23,764 nt of DNA from a virus, in IMG/VR virus record IMGVR_UViG_3300020214_000124, positions 1 to 23,764 of that record, one strand, 5' to 3'. Of the stretch, positions 11,790 through 19,344 are shown in pieces (position 1 is the first letter of the stretch; each line of letters begins with the position of its first letter). The translations under genes and the position numbers were made by a program. The notes beneath the pieces were generated by a model. The model saw only the letters and a list, made by a program, of their open reading frames with translations, had not been told where the DNA came from and did not search any database.

Positions 11790-12461
11790 TTACTTTTCTT
11801 TTTCAGAATCGTCGACCGCTTCATCTTCGTCGCCTTCATCTTCGTCGCCTTCATCTTCGTCGCCTTCATCTTCGTCATCTTCTTCAGATTTGCACATATT
11901 TTCGATGGTTGCACAAAGGTAATCGCAGCATTCAGCTTTTTCCATTTCCATTTTTTCGCAAACTTCGTCTAGAATGTCTTTGAGCTGATCTCCGAATTCT
12001 TCCATAAGCATTTTGAGTTTTTCCTCGTCTAGCTCAGGTTTTTCGTCGATCGGCATGTCGTCTGCTGGCATGTCGTCTGCTGGCATATCATTGTCAGCAT
12101 CCATCATTTCTTCAAATTTTTCATTAACGAATTCTTCAAAACGGAAAAGTCTACCTTCCTCAATCTTGGTTGAAGTTTTTGTTACTGGAGTAGAGTACAT
12201 CGGATCAAATGGTTTTTTTCTAGCTTGTCTGGACACAACGTCTCGTGAGACTGCCTTCCAAGTGGTATCATAGTTATTTATAGTTTTACCTCCTTCAAAA
12301 TCTGCATTTCTATCAACTACTCGCTGATAGCCTTTTAGAAAGTCTCTTTTAGACTTATCAAAGTCAATTTTTTCTTTTGGTCCGCCAAAGCCAGGCTTTG
12401 AAAGATCCATCCAATTATTCATTTTAGGATTTCTTCTAGATTTTGCATTAAACATATCCAT
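11790..12461 (-). CDS. Late protein with acidic repeat tail and capsid-targeting-like motif
   Basis: A 223-residue protein, last gene of the late block. The N-terminal 87 residues are polar and basic (NAKSRRNPKMNNWMD). The segment RFEEFVNEKFEEMM at 107-120 resembles the T4 capsid-targeting signal (YQEFIAE). A DMPADDMPADDMPIDE repeat follows at about 125-140, then a helical Glu/Lys/Met region with four cysteines, then an acidic tail built on GDEDE repeats. A late-promoter-like TATAAATAACT lies inside the gene, ahead of an in-frame Met at residue 88, so a shorter 136-residue form is possible. Family unknown. The acidic, repeat-rich, motif-bearing layout fits an internal head or assembly protein, but that is inference. 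The start could also be the second ATG two codons in. Confidence 0.75.
   Translation of the reverse strand: MDMFNAKSRRNPKMNNWMDLSKPGFGGPKEKIDFDKSKRDFLKGYQRVVDRNADFEGGKTINNYDTTWKAVSRDVVSRQARKKPFDPMYSTPVTKTSTKIEEGRLFRFEEFVNEKFEEMMDADNDMPADDMPADDMPIDEKPELDEEKLKMLMEEFGDQLKDILDEVCEKMEMEKAECCDYLCATIENMCKSEEDDEDEGDEDEGDEDEGDEDEAVDDSEKEK
11821..11880. repeat. 15-bp tandem repeat encoding GDEDE
   Basis: The unit TCATCTTCGTCGCCT occurs three times exactly (11821-11835, 11836-11850, 11851-11865), with a fourth, diverged copy at 11866-11880. Being a multiple of three, it lengthens the acidic tail without changing frame, so copy number can vary between isolates by slippage. Confidence 0.9.
12052..12096. 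repeat. 15-bp tandem repeat encoding DMPAD
   Basis: The unit GGCATGTCGTCTGCT occurs twice exactly (12052-12066 and 12067-12081), with a diverged third unit to 12096. It is in frame with the acidic-tailed late protein, which thus carries two independent in-frame repeat tracts. Confidence 0.8.
12275..12282 (-). promoter_or_regulatory. Intragenic late-promoter-like box (TATAAATA)
   Basis: On the minus strand the sequence is TATAAATAACT, identical over 11 bases to the box at 234-241. It lies inside the 11790-12461 gene, where it encodes the residues TINNY. The first downstream in-frame ATG is at 12200, 74 bases away, longer than the 20-26 bases at most other boxes. It may be functional or a coincidence of codons. 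Confidence 0.45.
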
Positions 12462-12475
12462 GATTAAATTTCTCG

Positions 12476-13066
12476 TTATTTTGTAACATCGCCTAGTCGA
12501 ATTTCGGTGTAAGTATCAGCAGAGAACGTTGCATTTAGACGATAAATTTCGTCAGATGCATAATCCAACGTCATCTCAGTTAACTTATCTGGCCCAATGA
12601 ATACTGGCGTAAAGTTAAGTTCTCTAAAGATTTGACCTGACCTATTAAAGATATTTACAGTAATTATTGCATCTGCGTAATCTCTCTTTAAGCCTTGAGC
12701 ACCAGTTAATGGATTATAAACTAGATCTGCCCATGCTCTTAACGCATTATAGATGTACATATCATTATTTTGGTTTAAGTTAACCTCAAAGTCAATCTTA
12801 AGAGTTACAGTAGTTGCTTCAGGTTTAGCTGCTGCATACAGTCTCCTAGCGAACTTATAGAATTGTTCAACTATTTTACCGGTTCCTGCTTGTTCCGGTA
12901 TACCGGTAACTTTTCTAACATGATCTAGCATCAAGGTCGAACCAAATCCAATCGCAGCTGCAACTGCTGGTGGAGGAGTGATTAATACCTCAAACTGATT
13001 GAGATAAATTGGCTCATATTTCTCCTTCGCTGCGGTAGAATTTCTCCAATGTGGTAATCCAGCCAT
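12476..13066 (-). CDS. 19: Tail tube protein gp19
   Basis: A 196-residue structural protein of the T4 gp19 tail tube family. T4 gp19 is 163 residues. Recognisable conserved stretches are YLNQFEVLITPPP near the N-terminus, the core FEVNLNQNNDMYIYNALRAW with DLVYNPLTGAQGLKRDY, and the C-terminal LDYASDEIYRLNATFSADT. The core strands and the NALRAW helix belong to the tube fold, hexamers of which stack to form the inner tube through which DNA is ejected. The tail sheath gene (18) normally next to it is not in this window. A late promoter (AATAAATAACT) lies 21 bases upstream and overlaps the stop of the previous gene. Confidence 0.92.
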   Translation of the reverse strand: MAGLPHWRNSTAAKEKYEPIYLNQFEVLITPPPAVAAAIGFGSTLMLDHVRKVTGIPEQAGTGKIVEQFYKFARRLYAAAKPEATTVTLKIDFEVNLNQNNDMYIYNALRAWADLVYNPLTGAQGLKRDYADAIITVNIFNRSGQIFRELNFTPVFIGPDKLTEMTLDYASDEIYRLNATFSADTYTEIRLGDVTK

Positions 13067-13086
13067 TTCGTGTTTATACTTTTTAG

Positions 13087-13920
13087 TTATTTATTAGAGG
13101 CAGATTTGCTTGCTTGCATTTCTTGCGTTTTCTTTGCAGTTCTTGTCTGTCTAATTCGCAAAATCATGTTCTCAATTTCTGACAACTTTTCTTCAGGCAA
13201 TTTTTCTAAGTCTGCTCTAACTGCCTTAGTGACCTTGATTTCTGTTGATTCTTGATTATCGTATGCAAATATGTCCTCTTTTGCTTTAAATCTAACTTCG
13301 ATTGATGGCAGCACCTGAATAATTAGATTGCCGCCGAATTTAGTCACGTCTTCTTCAAAATCGTCAAGAGTCATGTTCTTTTGTAAAAGTTTTCCGTTTA
13401 GCGTATATAAAACCGCAATACTAATTTTATCTTGGTTAGTTAATCCGCCCCTACTTAGTTCAGGTTGTAAATTGCTAGATACTTTAAATAGTAATTCAGC
13501 TGAAGAAGTTGTAATATTTCTTTGACCTTCAGTAAATCTTAATTTATCTGCAGTAACAACTACTGTGTAATTACTTAGAACCTTTTTCTCTTCATCCCCG
13601 GTCACCCCAGTTTGACTGGAATTAGGTTCGTTAGGTTGCTTATTGTCTTCTGGCTTGGGTGACTCTGGCTGATCTGATAGGATAGCTTTTTCTATACGGA
13701 GGTTTATTGCAGCAATTAACTCATTAATTCTAGCAGCAGATACGTACTTAACATATGTTGCTCTTGCACTAGCTCCAGTATATTCTAAATCGGGATACAC
13801 GTCAGCATCATGAATAGTAATCTTTTGATCATTTTGATCCCAATTGATTTGACCATCCACTTTTCGCCAAGTAGTTTCAAAACTTGCAGTAGTTTCAATA
13901 ATTACACCACGCGCGTTCAA
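13087..13920 (-). CDS. Unknown late protein, two domains joined by a Pro-rich linker
   Basis: A 277-residue protein. No ATG lies near the beginning; the likely start is TTG at 13918-13920, which directly follows the TAATAA at the end of the upstream gene. The N-terminal 85 residues form one domain, ending in an amphipathic helix (ARINELIAAINLRIEKAIL). Residues of about 86-115 are a Pro/Asn/Ser linker (PKPEDNKQPNEPNSSQTG). The C-terminal domain is strand-rich (NYTVVVTADKLRF, ISIAVLYTLNGKLL, LIIQVLPSIEVRFKAK), with a basic Lys/Arg/Ala tail. I do not recognise it. Its place between head genes and the tail tube suggests a head-tail joining or minor head role, which is inference. Its stop codon lies within the late promoter of gp19. 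Confidence 0.72.
   Translation of the reverse strand: MNARGVIIETTASFETTWRKVDGQINWDQNDQKITIHDADVYPDLEYTGASARATYVKYVSAARINELIAAINLRIEKAILSDQPESPKPEDNKQPNEPNSSQTGVTGDEEKKVLSNYTVVVTADKLRFTEGQRNITTSSAELLFKVSSNLQPELSRGGLTNQDKISIAVLYTLNGKLLQKNMTLDDFEEDVTKFGGNLIIQVLPSIEVRFKAKEDIFAYDNQESTEIKVTKAVRADLEKLPEEKLSEIENMILRIRQTRTAKKTQEMQASKSASNK
13088..13095 (-). promoter_or_regulatory. Late promoter for the tail tube gene (AATAAATA)
   Basis: On the minus strand the sequence reads AATAAATAACT, one base from the T4 consensus and sharing the ATAAATAACT 10-mer with the other boxes. It is 21 bases upstream of the gp19 ATG. It overlaps the TAA stop of the preceding gene. Confidence 0.7.
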
Positions 13921-13923
13921 TTA

Positions 13924-14247
13924 TTAACCAACAGTTTTTTCACCTTTAAACTCTTTGCCTACATTTGCTTTTTTCTTAGTTGGGTCAACTGGTTTATAAT
14001 TTGCCCAAATTTCATTATAAATTCTGCAAGAGGCTCCCATGAAGTTGACAATACCAATATATTTCTTACGGTCTTCTCCCTTCATTTTTGTGATTTTCTT
14101 ACCAATAGCTCTTGCATCGTCCAGATCAAGTTCCTCTTCCTCAGTCTTACCGACTAAATCTTTTAAAGAGTTTTCTTGAACATATGATGAAAAGCTCTCA
14201 GCAACATAGCCCATTTCAAGGATGCTATTTGAGGTAGAGTTTTTCAT
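13924..14247 (-). CDS. Small unknown late protein with capsid-targeting-like motif near N-terminus
   Basis: A 107-residue protein starting at ATG 14247, ten bases after the stop of the upstream repeat protein, so the two are probably read from the same late promoter. The N-terminal part contains SFSSYVQENSL; residues 19-25 (FSSYVQE) match the pattern [YF]xx[YF][IV]xE seen in T4 capsid-targeting sequences. The middle is acidic then basic (KTEEEELDLDDARAIGKK), and the C-terminus is Lys/Gly-rich. No enzyme motif is visible. It may be an internal or minor head protein. Family unknown. Confidence 0.72.
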   Translation of the reverse strand: MKNSTSNSILEMGYVAESFSSYVQENSLKDLVGKTEEEELDLDDARAIGKKITKMKGEDRKKYIGIVNFMGASCRIYNEIWANYKPVDPTKKKANVGKEFKGEKTVG

Positions 14248-14257
14248 TTGTCAATAA

Positions 14258-14620
14258 TTACTTTTTAGGCATTTTCGCCATTGACGAATCAACTGACTTC
14301 TTTGAAACAGAACCTTTAACTACAAGGTTTGCAAACTTAGAATCTACTGATTTGCTGGGAACTGAACCTTTTGCAGTTGGAAGAGATGCAGCGCCAGTTT
14401 TAACTGACTTTGAAGGTACTGAACCCTTTGCTTTAGGAAGCTCTGCCATTCCAGGATCAACTGGTTTGCTCACGTTTTTACCCTTAGCTTCTAATTTTGC
14501 CATTCCAGGATCAACTGATTTACTGGGAACTGAACCTTTCTCTTTAGGAAGAGCTGCCAGGTCTTGATTCGCTTTTTCAGCAATGTATTCGAAATAATTT
14601 AATACAGGCTTAGTGCTCAT
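14258..14620 (-). CDS. Small internal-head-protein candidate with capsid-targeting motif and repeats
   Basis: A 120-residue protein. The frame is open further upstream, but that stretch contains the previous gene's terminator and the late promoter, so the ATG at 14618-14620 (MSTKPVLNYFEYIAEKAN) is the real start. It sits 26 bases below the promoter. Residues 9-15 (YFEYIAE) closely match the T4 internal-protein targeting sequence MKTYQEFIAE, with cleavage expected after E15. The rest is five or six imperfect repeats of about 16-22 residues around KGSVPSKSVD and PGMA, basic and low-complexity, as expected for a DNA-associated protein packed in the capsid. It lies directly after the major capsid gene. 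The function is inferred from the motif and context. Confidence 0.75.
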   Translation of the reverse strand: MSTKPVLNYFEYIAEKANQDLAALPKEKGSVPSKSVDPGMAKLEAKGKNVSKPVDPGMAELPKAKGSVPSKSVKTGAASLPTAKGSVPSKSVDSKFANLVVKGSVSKKSVDSSMAKMPKK

Positions 14621-14646
14621 GTGAATTATATTTTTTTCTGTAGAGT

Positions 14647-14654
14647 TATTTATT
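14647..14654 (-). promoter_or_regulatory. Late promoter for the small repeat protein (AATAAATA)
   Basis: The minus-strand sequence is AATAAATAACT. It lies immediately downstream of the capsid gene terminator and 26 bases upstream of the ATG at 14620. This placement decides the start of that gene. Confidence 0.75.
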
Positions 14655-14666
14655 TGCGAACAGGTT

Positions 14667-14700
14667 AAAAAAAGAATGGCTCCCCATCGGAGAGCCATTC
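14667..14700 (-). terminator. Rho-independent terminator after the major capsid gene
   Basis: On the minus strand, GAATGGCTC pairs perfectly with GAGCCATTC (9-bp stem, 9-base loop) and is followed by seven T residues. It lies 22 bases beyond the capsid stop codon, so it would end capsid transcripts before the next promoter. Confidence 0.88.
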
Positions 14701-14722
14701 AATGTGTGCGAAATCAGTACGA

Positions 14723-15004
14723 TTACGCTAGAAGACTCGCAACACCATTCACGGTTAGTGTGAAGTATTGAGTTTCAGGATGCCATCCAGCCTCAGTGAT
14801 AGCATATCTTGACTTCATACCGATCTTTGGAGAGAAAGTACCCTCAGAGATAGTTTGAAGAGACTCAGCCATGATGTAAGGAAGGAATTTAACACCTGGT
14901 TCTTCGTCAGCACCTTTACGGCCGACAATGACACGGTTATCTCCGAAGTTCATGTTAGGATCTACGTAGATAGTTAAGCCGTATACTTTACCAGCTGGGT
15001 ACAA
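14723..15004 (-). CDS. 23: Major capsid protein gp23, C-terminal fragment (separated by frameshift)
   Basis: This frame carries the C-terminal end of gp23. The segment KVYGLTIYVDPNMNFGDNR, then VGRKGADEEPGVKFLPY and the FSPKIGMKSRYAI region, corresponds to the conserved end of T4-type capsid proteins. It has no start of its own: the apparent TTG at 15004 is just the Leu codon of GQLYPAGK. The frame is lost because of an exact 85-bp tandem duplication at 15041-15210. Removing one copy joins this fragment to the upstream part as GYVIT-PFNNDLPSSAGQLYPAG without any stop. A strong terminator follows. Confidence 0.88.
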   Translation of the reverse strand: MYPAGKVYGLTIYVDPNMNFGDNRVIVGRKGADEEPGVKFLPYIMAESLQTISEGTFSPKIGMKSRYAITEAGWHPETQYFTLTVNGVASLLA

Positions 15005-16370
15005 CTGACCTGCACTTGAAGGAAGATCGTTGTTGAAAGGAGTGATTACATAACCGGCTACATCGGCAAGAGCAGAAGCGATACGGCCATTGGTTATTAC
15101 GAAAGTACCTGCACCGAAACGTCCTAGTGATTACATAACCGGCTACATCGGCAAGAGCAGAAGCGATACGGCCATTGGTTATTACGAAAGTACCTGCACC
15201 GAAACGTCCTCTGTGGTAGATTAGGTTAGCGATCTCAAGGATCTTAGTAACTACTCTACGCTGAGCAGATGCAAGAGCCATAGACTCACTAGCACCAGCT
15301 GCAGGAATAGTTAAAGTTCCGAGACCTGAAACACCTTCTACTGTAGCAGCCTTAGCTGCATGCACATCACCAAGCTTAGCAACACGGTCAACCAACCTCT
15401 TGTTGATAGACTGAGCAAGTTCGTTAACTGCTACGTTCTCCAACATTGAGATAACGTCGAAGTTCCATACGCGGTTAAGGTCTTGAATTTGCTCAACAGA
15501 AGCAGAGATTGATACTTGATCGCCTTTTGCTTCTACGAACTTGGTGAACATTCTTAAGCCCATTTGACGGAACTTAGAAACTTCAGCCTCGTCCCTGGTC
15601 ATGCCGAATCCAGATTGTGAATTTGTTTCTCCAAGATAAGGACCATTGAATCCGGTAGTAGCGTAATCAGCATCGGACACGGAAGTGAAACCGGAGATGT
15701 GATTTTCTAGAGCAGATACTAGAGCCACACCAGCAGCACTTGCTGCAATATTTGCAGCAACAGCAGCAGCAGCAACAGTTGTAGTACCATCACTACCTGT
15801 AACTACTTTATAGATTGGGTGACCATCTACTCTTGAGTAACCTACGAAAGTGAAAGTGAAATCACCGCTAGTAGCACCGTTAGTATCAGCAGCAGTACCG
15901 TCAGTAACTTTGATTAAGAACGGCTCGAATTGAGAGTCTACGTTACCGCCTTGGTATACGTAGTCAAGGTAAGGAAGGAATCCTACTGGAGAATCCATAG
16001 GAACAACACCAACTAGGTCGAAACCAATAGTTTTAGCTGCTACTTGGATTGCAACTGGCATAAGTGATGGAAATTTATCACCAGAGCCAGAACCGGTTGT
16101 TTTTACACCAGCTGCAGTGAACGGAGCCATTAAACTGGTTGGAGCGCCGACTGCGCCCATTGTGCCGACAGAACCTGGCTGTTGGAAGAACAAGCCTGGA
16201 GCTACGGCCGCTTCATTAATAGCGCCAGCATTTTCGAAGATTGCGTGGTTGTGAGCATAGTCAACTAACCAAGGGCGCTGATTTAGATCTACGCCATAAC
16301 CTTCTAAAACTGGAGCCCAAGTCTCACGTACGCTTGCGTCGTTGAGTCTTTTGAAAATTTTAGTTGCCAT
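14988..16370 (-). CDS. 23: Major capsid protein gp23, N-terminal part ending in a frameshift
   Basis: The T4-type major head protein. The first residues MATKIFKRLNDASVRETWAP and the WLVDYAHNHAIFENAGAINEAA region match the gp23 prosequence. Cleavage by the prohead protease is expected after INE at residues 51-53. The hexamer-forming body runs to GYVIT. From there the reading frame enters the second copy of an 85-bp duplication in the wrong frame and ends in a nonsense tail rich in Cys, Arg and Ser (CRYFRNNQWPYRFCSCRC). With one copy removed the protein is 520 residues, against 521 in T4 gp23. As written it could not make a normal capsid. No late promoter lies just upstream, so expression presumably comes through from the protease-scaffold gene. 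Confidence 0.92.
   Translation of the reverse strand: MATKIFKRLNDASVRETWAPVLEGYGVDLNQRPWLVDYAHNHAIFENAGAINEAAVAPGLFFQQPGSVGTMGAVGAPTSLMAPFTAAGVKTTGSGSGDKFPSLMPVAIQVAAKTIGFDLVGVVPMDSPVGFLPYLDYVYQGGNVDSQFEPFLIKVTDGTAADTNGATSGDFTFTFVGYSRVDGHPIYKVVTGSDGTTTVAAAAVAANIAASAAGVALVSALENHISGFTSVSDADYATTGFNGPYLGETNSQSGFGMTRDEAEVSKFRQMGLRMFTKFVEAKGDQVSISASVEQIQDLNRVWNFDVISMLENVAVNELAQSINKRLVDRVAKLGDVHAAKAATVEGVSGLGTLTIPAAGASESMALASAQRRVVTKILEIANLIYHRGRFGAGTFVITNGRIASALADVAGYVITRTFRCRYFRNNQWPYRFCSCRCSRLCNHSFQQRSSFKCRSVVPSW
15041..15210. repeat. Exact 85-bp tandem duplication in the capsid gene
   Basis: Bases 15041-15125 and 15126-15210 are identical over all 85 positions and directly adjacent. The flanking bases differ on both sides, so the unit is exactly 85. 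As 85 is not a multiple of three it shifts the frame by one. Confidence 0.97.
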
Positions 16371-16388
16371 TTTTTAGAATGGGTTTTT

Positions 16389-18362
16389 TTAATTTTTTGC
16401 TCTACGTTTTAGAGCGTCAAGATAGCCGTTTGAGTAACCTCTTAGCCTTTCATTGACTTTATTTAACGAGACGTAGCCTTCTGAACCTTGGCTTTCGTTA
16501 ATTTTTTCTGAATTTGATTTTTCAATCACAATTCTCTCATGAATTCCGCGAAGATCGCGAGAATCCCAGAAAGATTTAACTTGATATGCATTATTTAATT
16601 GGAAGTTATGTGCTTGTGCTGCAATCCAATTTCTTTCTCCATCTGTCATACTTTTAAATACTTCTTTGTATTTTTCTGGCATAAATCTCACATATTTAGG
16701 AGTGTTTTCTTCCTGCTTATTAAGAACTGCTTCAATTAAATTAATAACTTCAGCTTCTGTGAAATAAACAGCTCCTCTTAGAGTTTCTACGATTGCCGTC
16801 TTAGTCTCTTGGTCTAATGAGAAAAATTTCTGCTTATTATTTTCGCTTAGAAGTTTTAAGAATGGATATCTATTTTCTAAAACTGAATTAGCTGAGTTAG
16901 ATTTAATGTGGCCTATAATTCCGTCAACGGCTTCGACTAATTCGTCAACACCAGATTCTTCACTTACCTCATATGTAACTCCTTCGTTTAAGGTCTTAAC
17001 ATCAGCTAAGAGCTTGCGAGCAGAAACTGCTGAACGTGGAGTAAGGTTTTCATTCAAGGTTTCCGCTAAATATTCAGAATATTTAATTCCTTTTTCTAGA
17101 TTTTCACCTAAATAATCTGCATATTTAATAGCAGCTTCTAGGTTTTCACCAATATACTCAGAATAACGAATTCCTTTTTCAGCTTGTTCAGCAACATACT
17201 CAGCATACTGAATTCCTTTATCTGCTTGTTCAGCAACGTATTCGGTATACTTGATGTTTTTTTCAACGTGTTCAGCAACATATTCTGAATAGTTAATAGA
17301 TTGATTTACCTTTTCTCCAACATAATCAGAGTACTGAATGTTTTGTTCAGTTTTTTCTGCTAAGTAATCTGAGTAATCGATCACGTTATTCACTTTTTCA
17401 GCTACGTGCTCAGTATATTTAATTCCGCTATTCAACATAGTTGATAGGTAGTTAGTATACTCAACTAGCTTTTCCATTTCGCCAGCTAGATAGTTAACGT
17501 AGCTGATCATTTTTGGAGATTCGTTAGAACTTTCAGATAGAGCAACGATGCCCTTATTGTTCTTTTTAATGCTTTCTTGAAGAGCCTCGAACTTTTTCTT
17601 AACTAGCTCAGAATACTGATTAAGTTCTTCTCTACTTACAAACTCATTTGCCATTTGTTTGTTGTTATTTTGAGTCGGTGTGTTCATTTCTGAATTATTT
17701 ATCCTATAGACCTTTACAGAATCCTCGAAATTGAAATTTTCTGAAATATCCATAAGTTCATTAGTAATAGATGTCTGCTTTAATAGATCTAGCGATTCAA
17801 ATACATTAGTAAACTGTGTTTGCAGTCCCTCGTTAACAGATTTCTGTAAAATTGCTTGCGAGAAACCTGGCTCAGCAACTAGATCGTATGTAAAAATTCT
17901 ATGAAGTTTAACTTTACCTTCATTCATTACTTGGCCGGCCGCTCTTGATGAACAGGAAATTGTGCAACCCGATTCAACTAGGGTTTTTGCAATTTGGCCA
18001 GCTGGTGTATTTAAGATACGTAACTTAATTTTTACTGAATTAGATCCCTGATCATAATTTAATTCTTCAACTACGTGTGATACGTTCTTAAGAGACACGT
18101 CAAAACTCTGTGGGTGATCTAGTTCGCCAAATAATTGGCCCTTTGAAATTTTTTCCTGCAAATAAGACAGATGGGGTAGATACTCCTCTTTCTCATAAAC
18201 TCGGTTGTTGTTGTTCTTAACTCCGAATATTGCAGCAGTACCTTCCAAAACAATGTCTCCATTATTATTTGATACTGACAAGCCTTCATTGACTTTCTCA
18301 ATGATAAAGACTTGATTCTGAGTTGGAACCGCAGTGCTCAAATTGATAAGATTAGTATCCAC
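16389..18362 (-). CDS. Fused prohead protease (gp21-like) and scaffold (gp22-like)
   Basis: A 657-residue protein with a GTG start at 18360-18362, 20 bases below a perfect TATAAATA. Residues 1 to about 175 are a gp21/U9-type serine protease: GELDHP (79-84, His83), SCSSRAAG (136-143, catalytic Ser at 138 or 139) and FTYDLVAEPGF (157-167). Residues 237-657 are a scaffold with a coiled-coil lead-in (REELNQYSELVKKKFEAL) and eleven consecutive 14-residue repeats at 288-441 of the form YxxYxxExxxxxIx, then a helical C-terminal region. T4 makes these as separate proteins of 212 and 269 residues. The protease part ends near residue 225, as gp21 would, and a late-promoter-like box plus Met codons at 226 and 237 follow. 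Scaffold alone may thus also be made. The scaffold shapes the prohead; the protease then degrades it and trims gp23. Confidence 0.88.
   Translation of the reverse strand: MDTNLINLSTAVPTQNQVFIIEKVNEGLSVSNNNGDIVLEGTAAIFGVKNNNNRVYEKEEYLPHLSYLQEKISKGQLFGELDHPQSFDVSLKNVSHVVEELNYDQGSNSVKIKLRILNTPAGQIAKTLVESGCTISCSSRAAGQVMNEGKVKLHRIFTYDLVAEPGFSQAILQKSVNEGLQTQFTNVFESLDLLKQTSITNELMDISENFNFEDSVKVYRINNSEMNTPTQNNNKQMANEFVSREELNQYSELVKKKFEALQESIKKNNKGIVALSESSNESPKMISYVNYLAGEMEKLVEYTNYLSTMLNSGIKYTEHVAEKVNNVIDYSDYLAEKTEQNIQYSDYVGEKVNQSINYSEYVAEHVEKNIKYTEYVAEQADKGIQYAEYVAEQAEKGIRYSEYIGENLEAAIKYADYLGENLEKGIKYSEYLAETLNENLTPRSAVSARKLLADVKTLNEGVTYEVSEESGVDELVEAVDGIIGHIKSNSANSVLENRYPFLKLLSENNKQKFFSLDQETKTAIVETLRGAVYFTEAEVINLIEAVLNKQEENTPKYVRFMPEKYKEVFKSMTDGERNWIAAQAHNFQLNNAYQVKSFWDSRDLRGIHERIVIEKSNSEKINESQGSEGYVSLNKVNERLRGYSNGYLDALKRRAKN
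17040..17501 (-). repeat. Eleven 14-residue (42-bp) scaffold repeats
   Basis: Eleven uninterrupted units, for example YSDYLAEKTEQNIQ, YSEYVAEHVEKNIK and YTEYVAEQADKGIQ. Tyr is at position 1 and, in all but one unit, at position 4; most units have an aliphatic residue at 5, Glu at 7 and a hydrophobic residue at 13. Fourteen residues are two heptads, so a continuous helical coiled coil is likely. The DNA copies have diverged, so this is an old repeat. Confidence 0.9.
17696..17703 (-). promoter_or_regulatory. Late-promoter-like box at the protease-scaffold junction (GATAAATA)
   Basis: On the minus strand the sequence is GATAAATAATTC, one base from the T4 consensus. It lies inside the fused gene exactly where the protease part ends. 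In-frame ATG codons follow at 17687 (8 bases on) and 17654 (41 bases on; MANEFVSREEL). The second is the better start for a transcript beginning a few bases past the box. Confidence 0.5.
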
Positions 18363-18429: not shown

Positions 18430-18437
18430 TATTTATT
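18430..18437 (-). promoter_or_regulatory. Second late-promoter candidate upstream of protease-scaffold (AATAAATA)
   Basis: The minus-strand AATAAATA has the same octamer as the boxes before gp19 and the small repeat protein, but is followed by ATGG rather than ACT. It overlaps the stop of the J-domain gene and lies 67 bases above the GTG start, so it would act in tandem with the box at 18383-18390. Confidence 0.4.
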
Positions 18438-19344
18438 AAGGTCTATTTAAAAAATTCACAAAAGTAGATTTCTCTTCATCAGTTAGTTCGGAAATGTCAG
18501 GTTTTAATACATTTAGTTTAAAGACGTAACAGCCTACTGTTCCGTTTTCGAGAATAGTTCCTTGGTCTGGAATGTTTAAGCTAAACTTGGTTAAACTGTT
18601 GCCATTAAATGACCTAATCTTAAATTTCTTTGAGTCGATTGTCTCAAATATAAACTCTTCTGGAAATAGCACATCCTTTAAAGAAATGTCTACCTCTTGA
18701 ATAATGTTGCCATTTTCTAATTCTATTCTTTCAGTTGGCACAACTAGGTTTACAATAAGATCACCAATCAAAAGGTCGGTTCGGCCTTTCCATGGATCTT
18801 CGTATTCCATTGAATTGCCATATCCCTTTATTCTAAGCTGAACCGTATAGAGGCCAGCTCGCTGTTTTACAATAGGAAAATGTCTCTCTCGAATATTAAT
18901 GAATAGGCTGAGTGTTTTTGGCTCCTTTTTAACTGATCCATCCAGTGAAGTCATTGTCTTTTCAACCATAACTTCGAATTTTTCGCCAGTTAAAATAGAG
19001 AGTAGAGAAATTTGATGATTATACATTATTGACAAATTTTGAGTCGATTGCCGCCTACCGAATCCGCCAAAGTCCTTCCATGTTCTAAACTGGTCAGCAT
19101 TAAAATCTTTAAAACCAAATACATCTGCAGCAAATTTAGTTTTCTTAGGCGCGTCATACTCTGCCCGTTTCGTCTCATCACCAAGTACAGAGTATGCTTC
19201 TGCAATTTTTTTAAACTTCTCTGCTCCATCAGGGTTTTTATCTGGATGAAATTTAGTAGCTAGCTTACGATAAGATTTCTTTATTTCTTCTTTACTTGCA
19301 TCTCGCTTGATACCCAATATTTGATAATAATCTTCCAATATCAT
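18436..19344 (-). CDS. DnaJ-like J-domain co-chaperone (class II, no zinc finger)
   Basis: A 302-residue Hsp40-type protein. Residues 1-65 form a full J domain ([20 protein letters not shown], then HPD at 33-35 in [10 protein letters not shown], then the [15 protein letters not shown] end), which stimulates the ATPase of DnaK. A Phe/Gly-containing linker ([20 protein letters not shown]) follows, then two beta-sandwich-like client-binding segments similar to the CbpA/DnaJ C-terminal domain (for example [22 protein letters not shown]). The CxxCxGxG zinc repeats are absent, so it is the CbpA/DnaJB type. It is encoded directly upstream of the prohead protease-scaffold gene, which suggests it brings host DnaK to head or tail assembly; that is inference. 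A poor late box (GGTAAATA) lies about 30 bases upstream. Confidence 0.9.

Follow-up and report, generated by a model that had tools for sequence, protein, structure and literature searches.

Capsid-targeting sequences (CTS) are known from T4, and to our knowledge the route by which the 10-residue T4 CTS takes a protein to the prohead core is still open. The window, an entire IMG/VR virus fragment of 23,764 bp, carries chiefly replication and nucleotide genes on its plus strand and a T4-type head and tail cluster on its minus strand. A sequence-only reading had proposed that a [YF]xx[YF][IV]xE motif is common to the scaffold and three small late proteins of this cluster, that these proteins are cargo entering the prohead by mimicking one scaffold repeat, and that each repeat is itself a protease site. 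Is the motif a head-targeting signal, and does its bearer copy the scaffold? Comparison with related phages leads us to regard it as a T4-type capsid-targeting and processing signal used at very large scale, with a probability of about 0.78, and to treat mimicry of the scaffold more cautiously.

A search for the strict motif in every window ORF of at least 40 aa, in all frames, located the scaffold and late-protein instances at exactly the residues proposed and found the motif nowhere else in the window; the plus-strand replication genes, which serve as a frequency control, returned zero matches. The three matches outside the scaffold compare with 0.54 expected from composition shuffles (P=0.023), so that the window alone makes a modest case against chance, and the case becomes decisive with the relatives. 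The closest of these in the phage collection searched are uncultured and have genomes of 462-735 kb; relatives of the protease-scaffold protein were found on at least 569 viral contigs. A narrower scan of bacterial genome contigs yielded no match, while a wider scan of bacterial genome bins yielded two, both labelled Bacteroidetes/Bacteroidales, which is weak evidence as to the host.

Table 1. Features of the window discussed in the text (all on the minus strand; a slash marks a predicted cut)
Feature	Window position	Residues	Description
Prohead protease fused to scaffold	16389..18362 (-)	657 aa	GTG start
Protease domain	17835..18257 (-)	aa 36-176	Identified by profile, fold and alignment
Eleven in-phase 14-residue repeats	17040..17501 (-)	aa 288-441	YxxY[VIL][AG]E..., predicted helical
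Scaffold C-terminal domain	16392..17039 (-)	aa 442-657	32-100% identity in relatives
Major capsid protein, Gp23 family	14988..16370 (-)		PF07068, E 5e-25; frame interrupted
Predicted capsid maturation site	16212..16220 (-)	aa 51-53	INE/A; [IL]NE/[AS] in window-clade orthologs
Small basic late protein (14258 protein)	14258..14620 (-)	120 aa	pI 10.1 after predicted cut; predicted head cargo
N-terminal tag of 14258 protein	14576..14596 (-)	aa 9-15	YFEYIAE
Small conserved late protein (13924 protein)	13924..14247 (-)	107 aa	Predicted head cargo
Near-N-terminal tag of 13924 protein	14173..14193 (-)	aa 19-25	FSSYVQE
11790 protein	11790..12461 (-)	223 aa	Basic N half, linker motif, helical hairpin, acidic tail
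Internal tag of 11790 protein	12120..12140 (-)	aa 108-114	FEEFVNE

The scaffold that carries the motif is fused to a prohead protease (Table 1). The fusion protein scores 37.6 bits against PF03420 Peptidase_S77 (cut-off 27) and matches the head maturation protease family phrog_207 (E 3e-34), and its best Foldseek match is T4 gp21 (5jbl, E 3e-7), followed by herpes proteases. GELDHP (His) and SSRAAG (Ser) in the protease domain align with GELNHP and VSSRGLG of gp21, and family profile, fold and catalytic His/Ser all assign the window protease to Peptidase S77. The repeat region consists of 42-nt repeats at the DNA level; the gene as a whole encodes five strict copies of the motif against 0.08 expected from composition shuffles, and repeats 1 and 2 lack the Glu in register. 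AlphaFold places helices at residues 282-350 and 358-436, with low pLDDT. From 44 scaffold proteins we extracted, by a procedure blind to positions 6 and 7, 532 units of 14 residues in 9-15 tandem copies per protein, with the consensus YSEYLAENLDKNIS. Nearly all units have Y/F at position 1 and Y/H at position 4, with [LIV] at position 5, mainly Ala or Gly at position 6 and Glu at position 7 in 479 of 532; about half of the units of the W01 phage have lost this Glu. Across the scanned genomes, the protease-scaffold protein alone has the unit in in-phase pairs.

Several other features of the head cluster deserve mention. The scaffold domain opens at a conserved in-frame Met (QMANEFV, window 17640-17700), preceded by an AAAATAA stretch resembling that found ahead of real starts in relatives, and it may start a nested product consisting of the scaffold only, like lambda Nu3; no Shine-Dalgarno sequence was found for such a nested gene, nor do the scaffold genes of this lineage have one at their own starts. 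The capsid gene contains an exact 85-bp tandem duplication (window 15041-15210) that causes a frameshift, the usual C-terminus resuming in a different frame at 14723-15004. Full-length capsid orthologs read through and lack the duplication, which may be either an assembly artefact or a real defect. A DnaJ-like co-chaperone gene (window 18436-19344), kept in window-clade relatives, adjoins the protease-scaffold gene and may serve head assembly.

All three late proteins have both aromatics, three residues apart, and the motif is kept in 21 of 21 distinct orthologs of the 14258 protein, 22 of 23 of the 11790 protein and 15 of 21 of the 13924 protein. When the 7,496 seven-mers of the window were ranked with a tag profile trained solely on N-terminal tags of other phages, the 11790, 14258 and 13924 sites ranked 1, 3 and 14; the top 14 also included nine scaffold repeats and two other minus-strand sites, and none from the plus strand. 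The 14258 protein, basic and repetitive and with a fully conserved tag, is the closest counterpart of the T4 internal proteins; orthologs back its start at 14620, as against the longest-ORF start at 14698, and its IAE fits the L/I-x-E rule for positions P3-P1. Both VQE in the 13924 protein and VNE in the 11790 protein have Val at P3. The 13924 protein is highly conserved outside a variable tag region, its 15 fitting orthologs having a spacing of one or two residues before Glu; three orthologs carry the variant FESFI..NE, and at least two (L178 and L197) have lost the tag.

The third protein fits the proposal less well. Its motif is present at residues 108-114 as proposed, but it is internal, so an N-terminal cargo tag is not an apt description of it. 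A somewhat more probable reading for this protein is that the protease cleaves at this internal motif and so splits a core protein in the manner of T4 gp67, and we consider such a divided core protein likelier than cargo. The motif holds its internal place near residue 108 in the conserving orthologs, separates a part of pI 9.7 from one of pI 4.1 and falls in a low-confidence linker of the AlphaFold model, and T4 gp67 likewise has NFLIE/GEE followed by an acidic tail, a cut assigned via the L/I-X-E rule. Against this reading, no other site in the window matches the N-terminal tag profile as well, and the match extends to the aromatics.

The genome-scale search for further N-terminal copies that the sequence-only reading had called for was run in the relatives, with [YF]xx[YFW][IVLM]xE beginning at or before residue 13. 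It revealed 140 otherwise unrelated proteins tagged at the extreme N-terminus in six related phages, 9- to 17-fold over background and rising to ~150 if one extra residue is permitted before Glu, counts that are approximate because ORF calling was mechanical, in 20-kb pieces, and covered 400 of the 642 kb of W04. The 735-kb phage W05 has 52 such tags against 3.0 expected (P=6e-45); observed and expected numbers are 22 and 2.3 in W01, 17 and 1.7 in W04, 12 and 0.7 in G001, 17 and 1.3 in G006, and 20 and 1.6 in G009. When 107 of the tagged proteins, from four of the phages, are aligned, MxxxxxYxxFxxE is the only feature they share. Pfam domains among the 107 include PPK2, methyltransferases, LRR, radical SAM, DeoC, MoxR/VWA and HNH, and additional tagged proteins have NUDIX, HAD, RNase T, lysozyme and RimK-like domains. 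The NUDIX, HAD and radical-SAM domains start at residues 18-22, directly past the tag, which therefore looks like an added module. P3 of the relatives' tags is mostly I or L. A second motif 14 residues downstream of the tag showed no enrichment (1/141). Lak phage was considered as a further tagged lineage and ruled out, with two N-terminal tags against 1.2 expected in the 300 of 542 kb read. The literature within our reach, which included few subscription papers, does not mention tags of this kind in huge phages.

Some genes stand out individually. In LR756500 (L092-L114), ~22 proteins open with a nearly identical MKYIKEYEEFILEA on mostly different bodies, which suggests that duplication or recombination has spread the tag recently. 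The 735-kb phage encodes a protein of 1,691 aa (L047:1458-6533) whose motif copies lie 58 residues apart, as against 14 in the scaffold. A small radical-SAM protein (L055:704-1237) carries the tag, and in the tagged set PADLOC gives weak hits for defence models, viperin-type ones among them.

Whether the tag copies a scaffold repeat was examined with profiles in both directions. Ranked among internal seven-mers by the tag profile, most scaffold repeats of W05 and W04 and part of those of G001 come in the top few 1e-4, and the degenerate repeats of W01 do not score; the proposed mimicry is only partly supported. In reverse, the scaffold-repeat profile recovers tags above chance in W05, where it finds 16 against 4.0 expected and is matched by 2 of 200 permuted controls, and reaches no significance in W04, G001 or W01; it was dropped as a tag-finding tool, and its failure outside W05 weakens strict mimicry. 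Tags prefer Phe at position 4 and Asn at position 6, repeats Tyr and Ala/Gly, and in W01 the repeats are often without Glu, yet tags, whose search pattern itself demands Glu, are numerous. The repeat scaffold and the tag co-occur in all six genomes scanned, and neither was found in PAU or in Lak (300 of 542 kb). The cross-matches of the profiles and the differing position preferences point to one pattern class comprising tags and repeats, for which common ancestry or a docking relation is possible. We give slightly less than even odds to the proposal that cargo docks on the scaffold by copying one of its repeats. The odds are balanced that the protease cuts the scaffold in each repeat; such cutting is compatible with the occurrence of [ILV]xE in one register in 479 of 532 units, and chopping of the core into 14-mers would likewise be compatible with the sequence.

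Comparison with T4 bears on what the tag does. Two ORFs of the T4 record begin MKTYQEFIAE, and their Y4, F7, I8 and E10 are the motif's four fixed positions. A review of T4 head assembly (PMC9026906) reports that in the CTS of IPIII targeting is governed chiefly by residues 4 and 7, and processing by residues 8 and 10, so that the likeness to T4 noted from the window extends to all four functional positions. The commonest tag ending, INE, has the same P3-P1 as the capsid-protein site, with Asn the most frequent residue at tag position 6. This last agreement also suits an unlikely alternative to a targeting signal, namely that the tag is merely a protease site in a helical context, that the proteins enter the head by other routes, and that likeness to the repeats reflects cleavage specificity and an amphipathic helix. 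The P3-P1 residues of tags are indeed closer to the capsid-protein site than to the scaffold repeats, and the repeat profile alone fails to pick out tags in W04, G001 or W01. However, the capsid-protein sites have no aromatic pair, and apart from PAU and Lak the tags of every lineage scanned retain it, and the corresponding T4 aromatics are those that determine targeting.

An independent check comes from another lineage, phage PAU (L279-L282 and L025), where a separate N-terminal tag, MKTLTxLYE, marks 19 of 294 genes (~19 against 0.5 expected), including four of the five proteins annotated by the depositors as internal capsid proteins (P=6e-5), an annotation whose basis the record leaves unstated. 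PAU gp152, labelled scaffolding, itself opens with the tag; gp155 looks more like a gp22-type scaffold than gp152 does. The tagged internal capsid proteins of PAU count against a decidedly improbable account in which the N-terminal motif addresses proteins elsewhere, to a replication compartment or membrane assembly site, and has nothing to do with the head. The mixed functions of the tagged proteins, many of which resemble enzymes of nucleotide or RNA metabolism, would suit such an address, but the core scaffold and T4 head proteins have the pattern too, and it recurs beside the capsid gene. It is very unlikely that chance produced the three window matches and that the scaffold repeat is a coiled coil unrelated to them, for although the window-only P is modest, the motif is conserved among orthologs of all three proteins and the N-terminal enrichment in relatives is extreme.

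We return to a capsid-targeting and processing signal, whose role as a cargo tag is well supported by the N-terminal tags, the CTS match, the capsid site and PAU. The shared motif, its N-terminal enrichment and conservation, the protease active-site residues and the match to the capsid site are features of the sequences compared; from them we infer targeting, cutting and ejection of the tagged proteins. Tagged proteins would bind the prohead assembly core through the aromatics at positions 1 and 4, the scaffold-fused protease would cleave after the Glu of [ILV]xE, and the mature cargo, freed into the head, would be ejected along with the DNA. The clade would apply this one signal to dozens of proteins, enzymes among them. 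Since the scaffold has 9-15 closely similar helical units, its own helical lattice is a likely docking site, where cargo would replace one unit. More tentatively still, the scaffold may be a polymer of the targeting peptide, each unit serving as assembly contact and protease site, so that a single code would govern building, loading and removal of the core. A scaffold built of CTS-like repeats suggests an answer to how the CTS docks and makes the question testable. The tag also offers a sequence rule predicting which proteins huge phages, even never-cultured ones, carry and deliver: ~140 candidate virion proteins are now named in six phages, with NUDIX, HAD, radical SAM, PPK2, methyltransferase, RimK-like and LRR domains among them.

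Among known systems, T4 gp21 resembles the window protease in Pfam family and fold, in its aligned His/Ser motifs and in its location in the head cluster, whereas the window protease forms a single polypeptide with the repeat scaffold; gp21 is also described as requiring L/I at P3, where the 11790 and 13924 proteins have V. Protease and scaffold share a single gene in lambda C/Nu3 and in herpesvirus assemblin. The window protein is likewise one polypeptide, but its protease family and its repeats differ from theirs. The scaffold is like T4 gp22 in lying between protease and capsid gene and in being predicted helical (from a low-confidence model), but the two have no detectable profile similarity (hhalign probability 0.9%), and no 14-mer array was found in the gp22 of six phages. 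The YINYVQRE of T4 gp22 was ruled out as a docking motif, being unconserved in EcS1, Acj9, ZPAH1 and P-HM2. The best-conserved part of gp22 begins with F/Y-x-x-H/Y-[LIV]-A-x-E-W-[LM]-x-E-N, for which homology to the scaffold repeats was not found. In pattern and composition the 11790 protein fits the arrangement of gp67, where a [hydrophobic]xE site precedes a highly acidic tail, and it is possibly a core protein of that type. The PAU tag MKTLTxLYEA is similarly one N-terminal peptide on ~19 proteins, of which four carry an internal-capsid annotation, but it has Leu-Leu for the aromatic pair, Glu one residue earlier and no accompanying repeat scaffold. The CTS of T4 IPII and IPIII agrees with the clade's tag in having aromatics three apart, a hydrophobic P3 and Glu at P1 at the extreme N-terminus, on basic cargo of a phage that encodes an S77 prohead protease. 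The clade differs in its preference for F and N at positions 4 and 6 and in the internal copy of the 11790 protein. Its notable novelty relative to the T4 system lies in scale and in the repeat scaffold: the tag is borne by dozens of proteins per genome, enzymes included, and accompanies a scaffold of 9-15 similar units, whereas T4 uses its tag without a repeat scaffold.
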